A stretch of 64,000 nt of DNA from Candidatus Dadabacteria bacterium CSP1-2 (lineage in GTDB: Bacteria > Desulfobacterota_D > UBA1144 > Nemesobacterales > CSP1-2): assembly GCA_001443445.1 (NCBI GenBank), contig LDXN01000006.1, positions 1-64,000 of the forward strand. Direction: 5' to 3'. A program made the translations under genes and the position numbers. The notes beneath the pieces are model-generated. The model saw nothing but the letters and a program-made list of their open reading frames with translations, was not told where the DNA came from and did not search any database. Below are positions 52,956 through 62,245 of the stretch, piece after piece (positions within the stretch are counted from its first letter, which is position 1; each line of letters begins with the position of its first letter).

Positions 52956-55900
52956 TTAATAACCCAAATTTGGACGAAGCCATTTCTCAACGACTTCGAC
53001 GGACATATTCTTTCGCCTGGCGTAGTCATCAACCTGGTCGCGGTCTATTTGGCCTACATGGAAATATTTTGCTTCTGGATGGGCGAAGTAGAAACCTGAA
53101 ACAGAGCTTGGAGGGTTCATAGCGAAATTTTCTGTGAGGGTTATTCCGACGTTCTTCTCAGCATCGAGCAAACTCCAGAGAAGGCCCTTTTCTGTGTGAT
53201 CTGGACAGGCTGGATAACCAGGTGCTGGACGGATTCCTCTGTATTTCTCATTGATCAAGCCTTCGAATGAAAGATTCTCATCTTTGCCAAATCCCCAAAT
53301 TATTCGTGCTTTCTTATGCATCATTTCTGCAAGTGCCTCAGCAAATCTGTCGCCAAGCGCCTTAACCATTATGGCAGAATAGTCATCGTTCTTAGCTTTT
53401 AAGGTTTTGGCGAAATCTTCCACCTCCTCTCCAGCAGTCACTGCGAATCCACCGATGTAATCCTTACGACCAGACTCCTTAGGTGCAACAAAATCTGCCA
53501 AACAGTAGTAAATACCATTCTCATCTTTTACCTTTTGCTGACGGAGGAAGTGGGATGTTCCCAAAACTTCTTTACGCGATTCGTCCGTATAAACCTCAAT
53601 ATCATCGCCAACACTGTTGGCAGGCCAGAGAGCTATAACAGCACGGGCTCTGAAGCGTTTGTTTGCAATAATTTCCTTAAGTAGTCTTTGTGCATCCTGA
53701 TAAAGCTCGCGTGCTTGGGCTCCATAATCCTTATGTTTAAAAATTTTTGGATAAACTCCTTTAAGTTCCCACGCCCAGAATAGAGGCGACCAGTCTATAT
53801 AAGGGGCAATCTCTTCAAGAGGAATGTCTTGAAAAACCTGCAAGCCTAACTTGGCAGGGGTATCAATGCGTATGTTTTCCCAATCAGTCTTAAACACATT
53901 AGCACGAGCTTCTTCTATAGGAACAAAGTTTCTTTTTTTCTTACCTGCGGCATGTTGTTGTCTTCGCTTTTCCTGCTCGATTCGGAGATCAGCGACATAC
54001 CTATCCATCTTTTCCGGATTCAGTAGATTGTTACAGACACCGACAATCAGGGAGGCATCAAGAACATGTTCGGCTACACCACTATACTGAGGGGCGATCT
54101 TAATAGCAGTATGGGCTTTGCTAGTCGTTGCTCCCCCAATAAGAAGGGGTATCTTAAAACCCTGTCGCTCCATTTCAGAGGCATTATGGATCATTTCATC
54201 AAGTGAAGGTGTAATAAGCCCACTTAAGCCGATAATATCAGCGTTTATCTCTCTAGCTGTATTTAATATTTTTTCACAGGGAACCATCACACCAAGGTCA
54301 ACAACTTCATAGTTGTTACATGCAAGAACCACAGCAACGATATTTTTTCCAATGTCGTGTACATCACCCTTCACCGTAGCAATAACAAACTTCCCCCGAT
54401 TTCGCGCGTTTTGGGTCTTGGCTTTTTCTGCCTCCATAAATGGTTCGAGATAAACAACGGCTTTTTTCATAACACGAGCACTCTTAACAACCTGGGGAAG
54501 AAACATCTTGCCCGCTCCAAAAAGGTCTCCAACTACCTTCATGCCATCCATAAGTGGACCTTCAATTACATCAAGAGGCATTGCGTATTGCTGGCGGGCT
54601 TCTTCAGCGTCCTCTTCAATATAATCCATGATTCCGTTAACAAGAGCATGTGTGAGTCGCTCATTTACGGTACCTCTTCGCCAGAGGTTTTCATCCTTTG
54701 CTTTAGCTTTTCCCTTGTTTTTGACCCTCTCTGCATATTCGATAAGGCGTTCGGTTGCATCTGGTCGCCGATTGAGAAGGACATCCTCAACTAATTCAAG
54801 TAATTCTTTATCAATTTCTTCGTATACAGCAAGCATGCCAGCATTAACAATAGCCATATCAAGTCCTGCATTGATGGCGTGGTATAGAAATGCGCTGTGC
54901 ATTGCTTCCCGCACTATATTGTTGCCGCGAAAAGAGAAGGATATGTTGCTTATCCCCCCGCTTGTGCGTGCACCTGGACATGTGGCTTTGATTTCACTTA
55001 CAGCCTCTATAAAGTCCACTGCATAATTGCTATGCTCATCTATACCTGTAGCCACAGTCAGAATGTTAGGATCAAAAATGATATCCGTCGGATCCATACC
55101 AACCTTTTCGGTCAAGAGTTTATATGCCAGCTTGCAGATTCGGACTTTATCAGCTTTACTGACAGCTTGTCCATGTTCATCAAAAGCCATTACTATGACG
55201 GTAGCACCATAGCGCATAATAAGCCTTGCCTGCTCAAGGAACTTTTCCTCGCCTTCTTTTAAGCTGATAGAATTCACTATACATTTGCCTTGAACAGAAC
55301 GAAGACCCGCTTCAATAACCGACCACTTAGAGCTGTCAATCATGATAGGAACACGTGCGATATCGGGTTCAGAGCCAATTAAATTCAAAAAGCGCGCCAT
55401 GCATGCTTCACTATCTAGCAGAGCCTCGTCGAAATTGACGTCAAGTATGTTGGCACCGTTTTCCACCTGCTGCCTGGCTATTGCTAAAGCACCCTCAAAA
55501 TCATCTGCTTTAATAAGTTGTGCAAATTGAGGCGACCCAGTTACGTTAGTTCTTTCACCAATCATAACAAATGGAGCGTTGTCACCCTCTATTTTCAAAG
55601 GTTCAAGACCGCTAAGACGAGTCGCAGGAGTAACCTTTGGAATCTTACGTGGTAGAATTCTTCTCAATCTTTCCTTAATAGCACATATATGCTCAGGCGT
55701 TGTCCCACAACAACCACCGACGATGTTCAAAAATCCGCTACGAGCAAAATCTTCCAGTAAACTTGAAGTTATATCAGGGGTTTCATCATACCCGGTTTCG
55801 CTCAAAGGATTAGGGAGACCGGCATTAGGGTAACAACTGATGTAACAATCGGCAATTTTGGAGAGTTCTTCCATATGTGGACGCATCTCTTTGGCACCTA

Positions 55901-56660
55901 AAGCACAATTAATACCAACACTTAATGGCTTAGCGTGCTGAACGGAGTACAAGAAGGCCTCTATAGTCTGGCCGGATAGTGTGCGGCCAGAGGCGTCCGT
56001 GACCGTTACAGAAAGCATGATAGGCAGGCGTACACGATGCTCATCAAAAAATTTTTCGATAGCAAAAATGGCAGCTTTCAGGTTTAGAGTATCAAAAGCA
56101 GTCTCTGGCAATAATATATCCACTCCGCCATCAACTAGACCTTTAACCTGCTCATAGTAGGCATCAACCAGCTCCTGGAATGTAATGGAGCGGAATGAAG
56201 GGCGGTTAATATCAGGAGATAACGATGCTGTTCTGTTAGTTGGTCCAATAGCACCTGCAACAAAGCATTGACGATTAGGGTTCCTTGCCATGAATTCATG
56301 TACTACATTGCGAGCAATTTGAGCACCTTTTCTGTTAAGTTCATAAACAATGTTGTCTAGACCATAATCAGCCTGGGCGATCCTCGTACTGTTGAAGGTA
56401 TTGGTTTCAATAATATCCGCACCTGCCTCTAAATACTGACGGTGTATAGCAGTAATTATCTCAGGACAAGTTAGATTTAAAATGTCGTTATCCCCTTTAA
56501 TATCCTTGTGATGATTCTTAAAGCGCACTCCCCTAAATTCAGCTTCTCCCAATTTATGGCTCTGAATCATAGTGCCCATAGCGCCATCTAAAATAAGTAT
56601 GCGCTCTTTAAGTAATTCTTGGAGGAGTTTATATTTTTCGCTTTCAGGTTTTATTAACAT
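52956..56660 (-). CDS. metH: Methionine synthase, cobalamin-dependent
   Basis: A 1234-residue, four-module enzyme that transfers a methyl group from methyl-tetrahydrofolate to homocysteine. The homocysteine domain is first ([23 protein letters not shown] and [10 protein letters not shown] giving the zinc Cys residues). The pterin domain follows ([18 protein letters not shown]). The cobalamin domain has [10 protein letters not shown], with the lower-ligand His, and [13 protein letters not shown]. The reactivation domain ends with [18 protein letters not shown]. No cobalamin riboswitch is visible upstream. Two small genes precede it closely on the same strand. Confidence 0.97.
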
Positions 56661-57382: not shown

Positions 57383-57820
57383 ATGATTAAAGAACTAATA
57401 AAGACGCATGCAAAAGTAAAAGAACGTCAGAACATATCTTTATGCACATTATTTTTAGTCGTTTTAGTAATTTTGATTATTGGTTGTGGTAAAAAGGAAA
57501 ATGAAATTCCAGCAGTGCATATACCTGGAATAAGGGCGCCAATTACGAAAATACTCATCTCTCCCCTAGCCTTCGACGGCGCAATAGTAGCTGTCGAAGG
57601 AATAGCCCATGATGTCAAGCAAGAGAAATCCGATGGACAGGATAAAACATCAACTATATTTAAGTTATCTGACCTTCAAGGGAATTATATAAACGTATCA
57701 ACACCAGGAAAAAGGGAGATTTTCGAATACGATTATCTCGTTGTTGGAGGGATATATCGACGAGCTCAAAACTTAATAGAGGCACAACAAATAGAGATAA
57801 TAGTATTAGAAGAAAAATAG
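57383..57820 (+). CDS. Predicted lipoprotein with an OB-like domain
   Basis: A 145-residue protein. A charged N-terminus and a hydrophobic stretch (about 22-33) end in LIIGC with a following GKKEN, a good lipobox. The mature part is beta-rich: AIVAVEGIAHDV, FKLSDLQGNYINVSTPGK and YLVVGGIYRRAQNL suggest a small OB-fold or nucleic-acid-binding-like domain outside the membrane. The function is unknown. A strong hairpin follows its stop. Confidence 0.75.
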   Translation: MIKELIKTHAKVKERQNISLCTLFLVVLVILIIGCGKKENEIPAVHIPGIRAPITKILISPLAFDGAIVAVEGIAHDVKQEKSDGQDKTSTIFKLSDLQGNYINVSTPGKREIFEYDYLVVGGIYRRAQNLIEAQQIEIIVLEEK

Positions 57821-57895: not shown

Positions 57896-57935
57896 CAATT
57901 AAGCTCCCTGGGGCAACCCACAGGGAGCTTAATTG
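57896..57935. terminator. Perfect 15-base inverted repeat
   Basis: CAATTAAGCTCCCTG (57896-57910) pairs exactly with CAGGGAGCTTAATTG (57921-57935) around a 10-base loop. It lies after the lipoprotein gene and before the RNase P-ligase operon. No T-run follows, so its terminator function is likely but not classical. Confidence 0.65.
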
Positions 57936-58003
57936 CTAATAATAATTGCCAAATCAATAATATTGAATATGCGCTTATTAACCGATAACCTTAAATAATT
58001 AGT

Positions 58004-58675
58004 ATGGCTGAACAAAAAACCACGCTTCCAAATAACGAATTGTCTGAAAGAATTTCACATAAAGAAGTTAAAACAGAGCATACACAGTCTAACAATGAGG
58101 CACATATACCACCACCAGCGGTATTACGTCCGCGTCTCGTACTTGACACAAGCCTATTTGTTAATCCCGATGCCCAACATCAATTCGGTGAAAATGTGGA
58201 TAAAGCAGTCGACAGATTTCTTAAAATTACGCGAGAGAATAACATCGAGATCTATATGCCTCTCTCTGTTTTTCGTGAGCTCTCGAACTTCACATCATCA
58301 GAAGCACTGATATCTTTTCGCCGAGATGCAATTGTGAGAGCACCTGACCTTTATAACTTGCAGGTACCTGCTGCCATTTTTCACATCTTCATAGGTGAAC
58401 TGCGTAACCGCATAAACAAAGGGCTACGAATCGCAGAAGAAGCGATTCACAAAGAACCAACTGCTGACAACTTACGTAGACTAAGACAAGAATACCGCGA
58501 GGCTCTACGCAGTGGTATGGTAGATAGCGTAGAAGACCTAGACGTGGTCTTACTTGCAAAAGAAATTGGAGGTGCCGTTCTATCAGCTGATGAGGGCATC
58601 GCCAATATGGCGGAAGCACTCGGCATAGAGGTTTTGTCAGCTACTTATTTTATCCACAGATATGGAGCAGAATAA
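58004..58675 (+). CDS. RNA-free RNase P (HARP), PIN-like nuclease
   Basis: A 223-residue protein of the HARP family (homologues of Aquifex RNase P; formerly UPF0278, also known as RNA ligase partner, MJ_0950 family). The PIN-like core shows LVLDTSLFVNPD with catalytic Asp48, then MPLSVFREL, LRNRINKGLRIAEE in the helical arm, YREALRSGMVDSVEDLDVVL with Asp178 and Asp180, and LSADEGIANMAEALGIEVL with Asp196. The known role is removal of tRNA 5' leaders by protein alone. A 40-residue hydrophilic N-terminal extension is unusual. It is followed 18 bases later by an RNA ligase in a clear operon. Confidence 0.9.
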   Translation: MAEQKTTLPNNELSERISHKEVKTEHTQSNNEAHIPPPAVLRPRLVLDTSLFVNPDAQHQFGENVDKAVDRFLKITRENNIEIYMPLSVFRELSNFTSSEALISFRRDAIVRAPDLYNLQVPAAIFHIFIGELRNRINKGLRIAEEAIHKEPTADNLRRLRQEYREALRSGMVDSVEDLDVVLLAKEIGGAVLSADEGIANMAEALGIEVLSATYFIHRYGAE

Positions 58676-58693
58676 AACCGAGAGTGAAGGAAT

Positions 58694-59782
58694 ATGCCTG
58701 ATGTAGAACGTGGGGTTGAGCAAAGAGAATATAATGGGCTCAAATACTGGCGTTATACAGATGATATAGGCACTACTCTAAGAGGAACTGTCATCTTATT
58801 TGACCCAAGTGGGCAAAGACCAGTTCGTACCATACCGGGATTTCCTCACATAAAGCGAGTTTATCGCTTGCGACCCGGCGTGCAACGTTTTTTCCATACA
58901 AATCCATTTTTTGTAGAAGAAAAACTCGATGGTTATAATGTCAGACTCTTAGTCCATCAGGGTCAACTTTTAGCCCTGACGCGTGGTGGTTTTGTGTGTC
59001 CTTTCACCTCAGAGTGGGCAGAAATCTGGTGGCAACGATACAAGCTTGGACGCTTTTTTGTAACCTATCCAGACTATGTTTTATTTGGTGAGGTACTCGG
59101 AGATAACCCCTATAATTCGCAAAGAGATCCAACTATTCCACCTGGCTTATATTTCTTCATATTTGAGATAATGAGATCAGATGGGGAATTCCTACGCGTT
59201 CATGATCGCTATGAACTGGTTGAGAGCTATGAATTGCCCACAGTGCCACTTTTAGGACAATTTACTTCTGACCGTATTGATGAGCTATTTGAGATTTTAC
59301 GTGATCTCAACAATAAGGAACGAGAAGGAGTAGTATTTAAAGCCAACACAAGCAAAAAAACCATGAAATTTGTAACCCCACGCACAGATTTACGAGATAT
59401 TAGAGATAATCTGATCCTGGAATTTGATCTGGAACCCGGTTTTATTACTAATCGTCTTTTGAGAATCTCTCTTTTTGTAAGGGAACTTAGTTTAAAAGAG
59501 GACGAATTCGCCTCTCGACTCGGTAGAGCGTTTCTCGATGGTTATTCTGCCCTAGAGACTTTTGAGTCCTCAAACGAGAAATATAACATTTATGTCAAGC
59601 TTCCTAAAACTTGGAACTCACTTCGCACCTTACTTAGCGGTTATGTCCCTATTAAAACCGACCGCGTCGAACCGGTTGTACTAGATGGCCTAGAGATGTT
59701 GCGTGTAGAATTCCGTCGAGTTTTTCGTAAAAGTACCCGACGATACCGTGAAATCCTCCGAGGCTATGGTCATATTGATTAA
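58694..59782 (+). CDS. ATP-dependent RNA ligase, Pab1020/Rnl3 family
   Basis: A 362-residue nucleotidyltransferase that seals or circularises RNA. The ligase motifs are in order: EEKLDGYNVR with adenylated Lys77, LTRGG at 96-100, FGEVLG at 131-136, EREGVVFKA at 209-217 and KTMKFV at 222-227. A C-terminal dimerisation-type domain follows. The Pab1020 family is mainly archaeal with scattered bacterial members and is almost always paired with the HARP gene, as here. The start follows GAAGGA. Arg codons are often CGN, unlike many neighbours, which fits transfer. Confidence 0.92.
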   Translation: MPDVERGVEQREYNGLKYWRYTDDIGTTLRGTVILFDPSGQRPVRTIPGFPHIKRVYRLRPGVQRFFHTNPFFVEEKLDGYNVRLLVHQGQLLALTRGGFVCPFTSEWAEIWWQRYKLGRFFVTYPDYVLFGEVLGDNPYNSQRDPTIPPGLYFFIFEIMRSDGEFLRVHDRYELVESYELPTVPLLGQFTSDRIDELFEILRDLNNKEREGVVFKANTSKKTMKFVTPRTDLRDIRDNLILEFDLEPGFITNRLLRISLFVRELSLKEDEFASRLGRAFLDGYSALETFESSNEKYNIYVKLPKTWNSLRTLLSGYVPIKTDRVEPVVLDGLEMLRVEFRRVFRKSTRRYREILRGYGHID

Positions 59783-60007
59783 TTAAATGAATTATATGAA
59801 ATTGAAGAAAGGTTATAAGCCAATACCAATAACAGAATTAATTTATAGACCTGCTCCCAGGCTCACATTTCTATAAAACTTTATTATTAAAATATAGAAG
59901 TGCCATTACATGCCATTACGAAAAGATATTCTCAAGCTCCTCAATCAATGTTCTAATTAATTAGATAAAATAATATTAACTGTTTGTAATAAATAATGGG
60001 GGTTGAA

Positions 60008-60718
60008 ATGATACTTAAAGATAAAGTTGCCATTATTACTGGCGGTACAGGGGCTTTAGGGAGAGCAGTCGTATCAGCATTTTTAAATGAAGGAGCAAAG
60101 GTTGCCTGTACATACATAGTGGATGAAGAACTGAAAGGGCTTTCCTCTATTATCGAGCATCATAAGTCAAACATCTTGTTTATAAAAGCAAATGTCACAA
60201 AAGAAAAAGAGACTGTTAAAACTATTCAAGAGACATTAGAAAGATTTGGACGAATCGATATTTTGGTAAATATAGTTGGCGGGTTTGCCTATGCAAAAAT
60301 CTTAGATACAGATGAGAAAACCTGGGATTCAATGATGAATATGAATTTAAAATCGACATTCCTCTGCTCAAAAGCTGTTCTACCACATATGATTAAGCAA
60401 AATTATGGAAAGATTGTTAACATATCATCCCGTCCAGCATTAAAGGGCTCGACAGGTGTCGGAGCCTACTCCGCTTCAAAAGCCGGTGTACTGAACCTTA
60501 CAGAAACTATCGCAGATGAAGTAAAGAACTATGATATTAACGTGAATGCAATCCTACCCAGTACAATTGACACACCTGCAAACAGAAGGGATATGCCTAA
60601 TGCAGATTTCTCGAAATGGGTAAAACCAGAAGAGATTGCAAGAGTGATTGTTTTTCTTGCATCTGATAATTCAAAACCAATAAGTGGTGCAGCAATTCCT
60701 GTGTACGGAAAGGCTTAA
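60008..60718 (+). CDS. Short-chain dehydrogenase/reductase
   Basis: A 236-residue classical SDR. It has IITGGTGALGRAV for cofactor binding, LVNIVGG in place of NNAG, ISSRPALKGSTGVGAYSAS with the catalytic Tyr-Lys, and ISGAAIPVYG at the C-terminus. An ATG four codons upstream is possible, but GGGGGTT before the ATG at 60008 supports the shorter form. Substrate unknown. It converges with the ATPase-GNAT gene and has no obvious functional partner. Confidence 0.85.
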   Translation: MILKDKVAIITGGTGALGRAVVSAFLNEGAKVACTYIVDEELKGLSSIIEHHKSNILFIKANVTKEKETVKTIQETLERFGRIDILVNIVGGFAYAKILDTDEKTWDSMMNMNLKSTFLCSKAVLPHMIKQNYGKIVNISSRPALKGSTGVGAYSASKAGVLNLTETIADEVKNYDINVNAILPSTIDTPANRRDMPNADFSKWVKPEEIARVIVFLASDNSKPISGAAIPVYGKA

Positions 60719-60733
60719 ACCTCCACGCCCTAA

Positions 60734-62245
60734 TCATGCTGTGACATCAGATTTATCTTGAAGAATGAAATCCAGAAGCGCTCTGCCGAAGTCCGAGGCG
60801 ACGGCGATGTCTTCAGGAGAGATTTCAACGTTATTTAAGTACTGGAGCCTGAGAACGTCTACATCTCTTAGTTGTGGTATAACACCGCCAAAAAAGAAAC
60901 CAAGCTTCCGTAGTTGTGTTCCAAGCACTCCTGTCTGATCATTTGAAAGTGGAAGGTCTACATAGATACATTCAAAATGATTTAGGCAAAGCTGCTTTAG
61001 ATGGAACCTGATCTCATCAAATGTGCTTTGGCCAATCGCTTCCACATTGAGTAAAGCCTGATTGTGATCCGGTCGTATTGATATTTTGATACGTCCGGTT
61101 TGTTGAGGGCGTTCGTTAGTTCGATCCACTTTCACCTCAACGATCTCCCTCTCAATCCCTAAAACGACGTAAATCTGCGCCAAGATCGAGCGATATTCAC
61201 TAGGAGGAAAGATTGAAGCAGAAGCACTCTTGAGAGTAGAGGTGTACATAAGTGCTACAGACTGGCGCGTAGGCCTTTTTTGATCTGTAATGCTTCTAAA
61301 CGAAACTGTACCAGGACTGTAACCAACTAGAAAGCCGACCTCATGAGCCCCTAGCGCCAGATTTCCCTTCTGGCTATAAGGATGGACAGTCACCGCCTCA
61401 CCGTAAATCCCGATGATCTGATTTGTAACTGCATAGTCAAGAAGAAAGTGCTTCATTCGTTCAAAGAGTTTATGCCCGCGGTAGCGAGGATCAACTATTG
61501 CTTGACCCGACTCTGCAACTTTAGCACTAGGACCATCAAAAGTAAGTGCGATGTGACCTATCATTTCACCTCGACTATTATAGACAGCAAAGGATTTCAT
61601 CAGTCCAGCTCGCTGTTTAGCTTCGACCTGCTGAGGGTAGTACACGAATTCCGATGGGTATGTGTAGCCATAGCATCGGTAAACCAGGCGTGCTAAGTCA
61701 ACCGCCTCCTCCGGCCGCATTATACGCGTTGTAAGAGCCTCTTCAGGATGTGCCTCTGCTATATCTAGGGCTTTCGGATGCTCTGCAGGATCTGACTGAT
61801 ACCGAACTTCAGCAGAAGGAAGCTCTTTAACAAGCTCAACGCGGTTACCAGACGGGCCTAGGTTTACGAAATGAACCTGGTCAGCATAGCCCTTTGAGAG
61901 GAAAGAGGAAAACCGTGGATCTCCACCTTGCTCTATTGTCAAGTAGTCAAAGGGAAGTCCTTTATCTTCGATTCCAACGACAAGTGAATGAGCCCGTCTG
62001 GATACAACGACGTGAACTGATTGTGTAGTGTCTCCTTCATATCCATACTCAAAAACTTTCTGAAGGACCTCATCTATAATAGCATCAAGTTTTCTGGCGC
62101 TTTCTTCATCTAAACCGGTAACTTTAGCAATATCAGCAATCAGATCTGTAACAGCATCAAGGTAGCGGTCATCTGCTAAGACCGTAAGCCGGGCGATTTG
62201 GATCTCTGATGCTTCTGTCTGACTGTAAATTGAATTCTCAGTCAT
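60734..62245 (-). CDS. HATPase-GNAT fusion protein
   Basis: A 503-residue cytosolic protein with three parts. Residues 15-145 form a RsbW/SpoIIAB-like GHKL domain: IIDEVLQKVFEYGYEG is the N-box region, but the usual Asn is Gln or Lys, and VVGIEDKGLPFDY is a good G1 box. Residues 150-320 are a GNAT acetyltransferase with AIVDPRYRGHKLFERM as the CoA loop. The last 180 residues include a beta-alpha region (IYVDLPLSNDQTGVL and PQLRDVDVLRLQYL). The fusion suggests anti-sigma or switch control coupled to protein acetylation; this is inference. Confidence 0.8.
   Translation of the reverse strand: MTENSIYSQTEASEIQIARLTVLADDRYLDAVTDLIADIAKVTGLDEESARKLDAIIDEVLQKVFEYGYEGDTTQSVHVVVSRRAHSLVVGIEDKGLPFDYLTIEQGGDPRFSSFLSKGYADQVHFVNLGPSGNRVELVKELPSAEVRYQSDPAEHPKALDIAEAHPEEALTTRIMRPEEAVDLARLVYRCYGYTYPSEFVYYPQQVEAKQRAGLMKSFAVYNSRGEMIGHIALTFDGPSAKVAESGQAIVDPRYRGHKLFERMKHFLLDYAVTNQIIGIYGEAVTVHPYSQKGNLALGAHEVGFLVGYSPGTVSFRSITDQKRPTRQSVALMYTSTLKSASASIFPPSEYRSILAQIYVVLGIEREIVEVKVDRTNERPQQTGRIKISIRPDHNQALLNVEAIGQSTFDEIRFHLKQLCLNHFECIYVDLPLSNDQTGVLGTQLRKLGFFFGGVIPQLRDVDVLRLQYLNNVEISPEDIAVASDFGRALLDFILQDKSDVTA

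Follow-up and report, generated by a model that had tools for sequence, protein, structure and literature searches.

A HARP, that is, a PIN nuclease of the protein-only RNase P family, and an Rnl3/Pab1020-type ATP-dependent RNA ligase are encoded in tandem on the forward strand of the 64,000-nucleotide stretch of DNA that was analysed (the window), and we propose, at a probability of roughly 0.45, that this putatively co-transcribed unit forms a cut-and-seal module for RNA that is accessory to the housekeeping ribonucleoprotein (RNP) RNase P. Why an RNase P-like nuclease and an RNA ligase should be paired has been posed as a question in the literature. Seshadri and Gopalan (mBio 2025; PMC12153264) have described the HARP–Rnl3 association, so that a preliminary description of this DNA was right in calling the linkage known and its purpose open, and its suggestion of an undescribed system is superseded by that report. 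What is added here to the known linkage is a Dadabacteria-type host and a rare, conserved operon form. The features concerned, namely the two ORFs, separated by 18 bases exactly as first described, and the elements around them, are the following:

57896-57935, strand not assigned: 40-nt hairpin between a lipoprotein-like gene (57383-57820) and the operon, with a fold of −29.4 kcal/mol (z −8.0)

57963-57996, + strand: putative operon promoter, TTGAAT-17 nt-TAACCT, in a conserved block ending TAACCGATAACCTTAAAT, 7 nt upstream of the HARP start codon

58004-58675, + strand: HARP, protein-only RNase P family PIN nuclease, 223 aa, TIGR03875/PF08745

58004-58132, + strand: N-terminal extension of HARP, 43 residues, disordered and fast-evolving

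58694-59782, + strand: Rnl3/Pab1020-type ATP-dependent RNA ligase, 362 aa, TIGR01209

Profile searches placed both proteins in the families to which they had first been assigned by reading alone. HARP scored 171.1 bits against TIGR03875 (cut-off 95.3) and 166.5 bits against PF08745, the PIN_5 domain (cut-off 27), and a sequence search aligned it with the Aquifex aeolicus RNase P (8kd9) at an E-value of 3e-36, the HARPs of Halorhodospira, Aquifex and Hydrogenobacter being its closest solved relatives. When nine diverse homologues from several bacterial lineages were aligned, D48, D174, D178 and D196 were invariant. These are the four catalytic aspartates, which the preliminary description had likewise regarded as intact, and they correspond to D7, D138, D142 and the SADEG Asp of the A. 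aeolicus enzyme (Aq880), where they are indispensable (PMC8266387). Also invariant were R161 and R165, which align with R125 and R129 of Aq880, and the R129A exchange abolishes the activity of the latter (PMC8266387). The predicted structure (mean pLDDT 77.5) comprises a PIN core, two spike helices (residues 123-149 and 154-169) and a C-terminal helix (213-220) reaching the position aligned with about residue 187 of Aq880, an enzyme that tolerates the removal of residues 184-191 (PMC8266387). Its top Foldseek match was the Aquifex HARP with pre-tRNA (8kd9; E-value 8.5e-16, TM 0.85 by target, 41% identity), and VapC structures were found among the weaker matches. The window HARP and Aq880 (8kd9, 7f3e) have the fold, the four catalytic aspartates, the spike helices (predicted in the window protein) and the two key arginines in common, whereas the former has a shorter inter-helix loop, the added disordered extension of 43 residues, and acidic residues at two of the five mutated basic spike positions. 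In the pairwise alignment D155 and E163 take the places of Aq880 K119 and K127, which would render the tRNA-binding patch less basic; R159 is kept in the basic tRNA-elbow patch of the spike helices. Judged from this alignment, the patch appears to be partly lost and tRNA cleavage may be weak.

The ligase scored 262.7 bits against TIGR01209 (cut-off 136.9), 90 bits against PF09414 and 23.1 bits, just under the cut-off of 25, against PF18330, which represents the C-terminal dimerisation region of Pab1020. Pab1020 of Pyrococcus abyssi (2vug) aligned with it over the whole length, up to the end of Pab1020 (phmmer, E-value 1.5e-61). Motifs I, III, IIIa, IV and V are intact in the alignment, with the nucleotidyl-lysine K77 lying within EEKLDGYNVR and K225 representing motif V, in agreement with what had been read from the sequence before; invariant residues are E75-E76-K77-x-D79-G80, R97, E133, F157, E211-G212 and K225. 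Compared with the Rnl3 proteins of P. abyssi, Palaeococcus (8uce) and Aquifex (3qwu), with which it shares the full-length alignment and motifs I to V, the window ligase has a shorter N-terminus, and the ligases of the window's family form a long separate branch of the tree. Against the sister species, the HARP core gave dN 0.012, dS 0.146 and dN/dS 0.08, and the ligase dN 0.016, dS 0.151 and dN/dS 0.10; on the strength of these ratios both are real, constrained genes under purifying selection.

HARP comes first and the ligase second, on one strand, in each of the five pair-bearing genomes of the family, the spacing being +18 nt in the window genome (G000), +6 nt in G001, +12 nt in G002, −4 nt in G003 and +6 nt in G006, and the flanking genes vary between genera. 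This short spacing suggests an operon, as had been supposed for the window locus alone. A purine-rich, ribosome-binding-like stretch (AAGG, GAGG) lies ahead of the ligase start in the family loci, with AAGGA preceding the ATG in the window, and the window HARP start is without such a stretch. Scans for consensus promoters and terminators gave counts at about chance level, and the upstream element was found by comparison of relatives instead. Ahead of HARP, G000, G001 and G006, which represent two genera with differing upstream genes, share the 18-nt block TAACCGATAACCTTAAAT without a single mismatch; it is missing in G002 and G003 and has no other occurrence in the loci compared. Local similarity of the upstream regions of G000 and G006 scored 31, as against a shuffle maximum of 19, and 0 chance occurrences of the element pattern are expected in the window. 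The element at 57963-57996 would accordingly be a candidate for the operon promoter, in which case the message would be near-leaderless. The arm motif of the hairpin at 57896-57935 has no second copy in the window, and none of the other four pair-bearing genomes of the family has a counterpart of the hairpin ahead of HARP; it possibly separates the upstream gene from the operon as a terminator, though one without a proper T run.

Within our sample, only the window's family has the pair in tandem. The comparison set consisted of 24 further bacterial genomes from at least three other phyla, with HARP and ligase genes adjacent or near-adjacent, and the two genes were convergent in every one of them (24 of 24; L038-L041, L071-L092), their 3′ ends overlapping by 4 to 39 nt in 19; overlapping ends of this kind could permit antisense control. 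In three more genomes the partner gene was not found within the stretch examined. The pair was divergent on two haloarchaeal plasmids, and two other such plasmids (L098 and L099) carried a HARP gene without a nearby ligase, at a short distance from HalOD1 output domain genes. Seshadri and Gopalan found the pair to be typically bidirectional and likewise describe co-linear pairs as rare, reporting ten of them, from Sulfolobales and Desulfonatronospira, with no naming of Dadabacteria in the main text (PMC12153264). The published linkage and that of the window's family agree in the two protein families, the adjacent genes, the co-occurrence and the presence of HARP beside an RNP RNase P, and differ in that the former is typically bidirectional whereas the latter is tandem in five of five pairs. 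The Pfam accession of HARP is printed in that paper as PF09745, the matching family here being PF08745. As the genes are adjacent in all three layouts, tandem, convergent and divergent, the arrangement points to a real functional bond, and the convergent and divergent pairs imply that the two genes do not generally require an operon. Clustering of the neighbours in the other phyla gave no partner that both recurred and seemed linked in function; these neighbours were mainly housekeeping genes (LapA-like, NadD, GlnS and DnaK/DnaJ, named by eye).

Among the seven genomes of the family both genes were present in the five named above and neither in G004 and G005, and profile searches of the 50 remaining genomes from the order and class yielded no full-length HARP and no ligase above cut-off. 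Weak PF08745 matches elsewhere in the class were rejected as HARP, being partial only (20-29 bits, profile positions 157-201, in frames of 330-350 aa), and are taken to be other PIN-domain proteins. It is this all-or-none phyletic pattern, and not codon usage, that supports a joint gain or loss of HARP and ligase. Acquisition by transfer, as put forward in the preliminary description, fits the patchy presence, but the two observations on which it was based do not serve as evidence. The N-terminal extension, 31-43 aa long among the five family members, is disordered (pLDDT below 50 over residues 1-38) and barely conserved in sequence, and such a fast-evolving segment is uninformative on transfer. 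The codon usage of the two genes is indeed mildly unusual (z −2.6 and −3.3), but nearby genes deviate more, with z −5.4 for metH (52956-56660) and −4.7 for the gene at 60734-62245. In both gene trees the five family sequences formed one fully supported clade with a long stem, which grouped with the HARPs of Aquifex, Halorhodospira and G197 in the HARP tree (97/97) and whose deeper placement was not settled in the ligase tree; the tree labels of PDB entries 7e8j and 7e8k were swapped, which left the placement of the window sequences unaffected. In a one-sequence search that returned two loci, the nearest named record, a Candidatus Dadabacteria MAG, held a ligase 96% identical to that of the window, and the second relative, 78% identical, is filed as Deltaproteobacteria. 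A phage or viral origin of the pair was rejected, since the ligase had no match in phage records and neither protein had one in viral contigs, and a defence-system reading was rejected as well, PADLOC having returned no significant match and only one of 13 bits.

The host genome encodes an RNP RNase P. A full-length rnpB was detected at G000:C8:32237-32638 (315 bits) and rnpA at G000:C65:1637-1945 (95 bits), which disposes of the scenario, raised at the outset, of HARP as the sole RNase P in the manner of the Aquificaceae. Aquifex is without the RNP enzyme whereas the window genome possesses it; HARP is therefore accessory here, and the pair probably does something extra beside the RNA-based RNase P. 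One alternative to the cut-and-seal module assigns to HARP the part of a back-up RNase P and to the ligase that of a general RNA-repair enzyme, the two having been gained and retained jointly for similar conditions and acting on different RNAs. The RNP enzyme in the genome is in line with such a division, HARPs of two-enzyme bacteria often retain some RNase P activity (PMC10941002), and knockouts are without phenotype (PMC12153264). The all-or-none co-occurrence in the family, however, argues for a functional bond, and the constant tandem order at −4 to +18 nt, together with the 24 convergent adjacent pairs of other bacteria, tells in the same direction, so that we regard independent roles as somewhat unlikely.

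The genes around the pair hint at stress and RNA repair, although they vary within the family. Both G002 and G006 have a universal stress protein gene about 130 nt ahead of HARP and an rtcA gene facing the ligase, and genes for a ribosome hibernation factor, a phosphoribosyltransferase and a protein with a tRNA-editing domain are found no more than about 5 kb away; next to rtcA, G002 also has a sigma factor gene. The rtcA gene is also found in a family member without the pair (G005). Two copies are present in the window genome (G000:C5:10986-11930 and G000:C11:15968-16911), of which one is intact whereas a stop interrupts the other, and rtcA of G003 reads with two stops. RNA end repair is common to the RtcA/RtcB system, whose rtcA adjoins the pair in two genera of the family, and to the reading proposed here, but RtcA and RtcB act on 3′-phosphate or cyclic phosphate whereas HARP and Rnl3 are concerned with 5′-phosphate and 3′-OH ends.

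Metal-dependent PIN nucleases such as HARP yield 5′-phosphate and 3′-OH ends. Rnl3 joins a 5′-phosphate to a 3′-OH, preferably inside one structured molecule, and archaeal Rnl3 circularises structured RNAs (PMC9014305). If the chemistry established for these relatives holds for the window proteins, a HARP oligomer would cut pre-tRNA or tRNA-like RNA at its metal-dependent PIN site, leaving 5′-phosphate and 3′-hydroxyl ends, and Rnl3 would adenylate the 5′-phosphate and join it to the 3′-hydroxyl of the same molecule, giving a circularised or re-sealed structured RNA. A single message, with translation of the ligase probably coupled to that of HARP, would keep the two proteins in step, and routine tRNA maturation would be left to the RNP enzyme; under stress, the pair would most likely serve to process or repair tRNA-like RNA that has been damaged or misprocessed. 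We favour the cut-and-seal module because both families are confirmed, the active sites are intact and R161 and R165 of HARP are invariant, because the genes are jointly present or absent in a constant tandem order with a conserved upstream element and a dN/dS of about 0.1, and because of the stress and RNA-repair neighbours in two genera and the circularising activity of archaeal Rnl3 (PMC9014305). Counted against it are the restriction of the stress-gene surroundings to two of the five genomes, the occurrence of rtcA without the pair and the partial loss of the HARP basic patch, as well as the inactivity of four other bacterial HARPs on pre-tRNA (cited in PMC12153264) and the lack of a growth defect in a T. 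kodakarensis ligase knockout (PMC12153264, PMC9014305) and in two archaeal HARP knockouts (PMC12153264). The narrower proposition that HARP and Rnl3 act sequentially on the same tRNA-like RNAs, producing circular or repaired RNAs in stress, is doubtful at present; if true, HARP would serve bacteria with an RNP RNase P by repairing or circularising RNA and not by maturing the 5′ ends of tRNA. The Dadabacteria-type lineage makes testing easier, as it offers one operon that begins with HARP and has a conserved element ahead of it, in a genome with both rnpA and rnpB but no fibrillarin.

Further explanations assign the two activities differently. In a toxin–antidote arrangement HARP would cut tRNA and halt growth, and the ligase would re-seal the damage. 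The placement of HARP in the VapC-like PIN group (PMC10941002), the VapC structures among its weaker fold matches, the two-gene, short-spaced layout and the all-or-none inheritance are compatible with this idea, which is mentioned as a possibility in PMC12153264; yet the HARP-bearing T. kodakarensis shows normal growth without the ligase (PMC12153264, PMC9014305), the core genes of the pair evolve slowly, and neither the phage records searched with the ligase nor the viral contigs searched with both proteins gave any sign of mobility, all of which makes such an arrangement clearly unlikely. Alternatively, the ligase might mainly serve to adenylate 5′ ends, which would give them a protective cap, and the capped leaders might be removed by HARP after stress, given that the Palaeococcus Rnl3 is reported to be a strong adenylator and a weak ligase (cited in PMC12153264). 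The window ligase retains all motifs of the full reaction, however, and we found no report of capped leaders in any pair-bearing bacterium, so that we allow this only a slender chance. C/D box RNPs are known from archaea and eukaryotes, and fibrillarin (PF01269) was missing in G000, G001, G002, G003 and G006, four further pair-bearing bacteria giving one weak, partial match of 22 bits in a 457-aa frame. The leading specific published hypothesis, in which C/D box guide RNAs lose their 5′ extension to HARP and are then closed into circles by Rnl3 (Seshadri and Gopalan), draws on the circularisation of C/D box sRNAs by Rnl3 in Thermococcus and Pyrococcus (PMC9014305, PMC12153264), but the genome content speaks against it for these bacteria, and for want of fibrillarin in the five genomes it is a poor fit to a Dadabacteria-type lineage and very unlikely here.

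With regard to the remaining neighbours, an SDR gene lies downstream of the ligase in G000, G001 and G003, which represent two genera, at about 213, 213 and 20 nt, respectively. One subunit of human mitochondrial RNase P is an SDR; the window gene (59996-60718) has the sequence of an ordinary FabG-like SDR and was given no weight as an RNase P-linked subunit. On the other side of the pair, the sister genome (L036 6114-7760) has a FAD monooxygenase-like gene between the upstream gene and HARP where the window has none, which identifies the upstream flank as a site of gene turnover. The gene at 60734-62245 encodes a 503-aa protein with a HATPase_c_2 histidine-kinase-like ATPase domain and a weak GNAT match, has a codon usage that ranks among the window's most deviant, and is kept in the sister genome.
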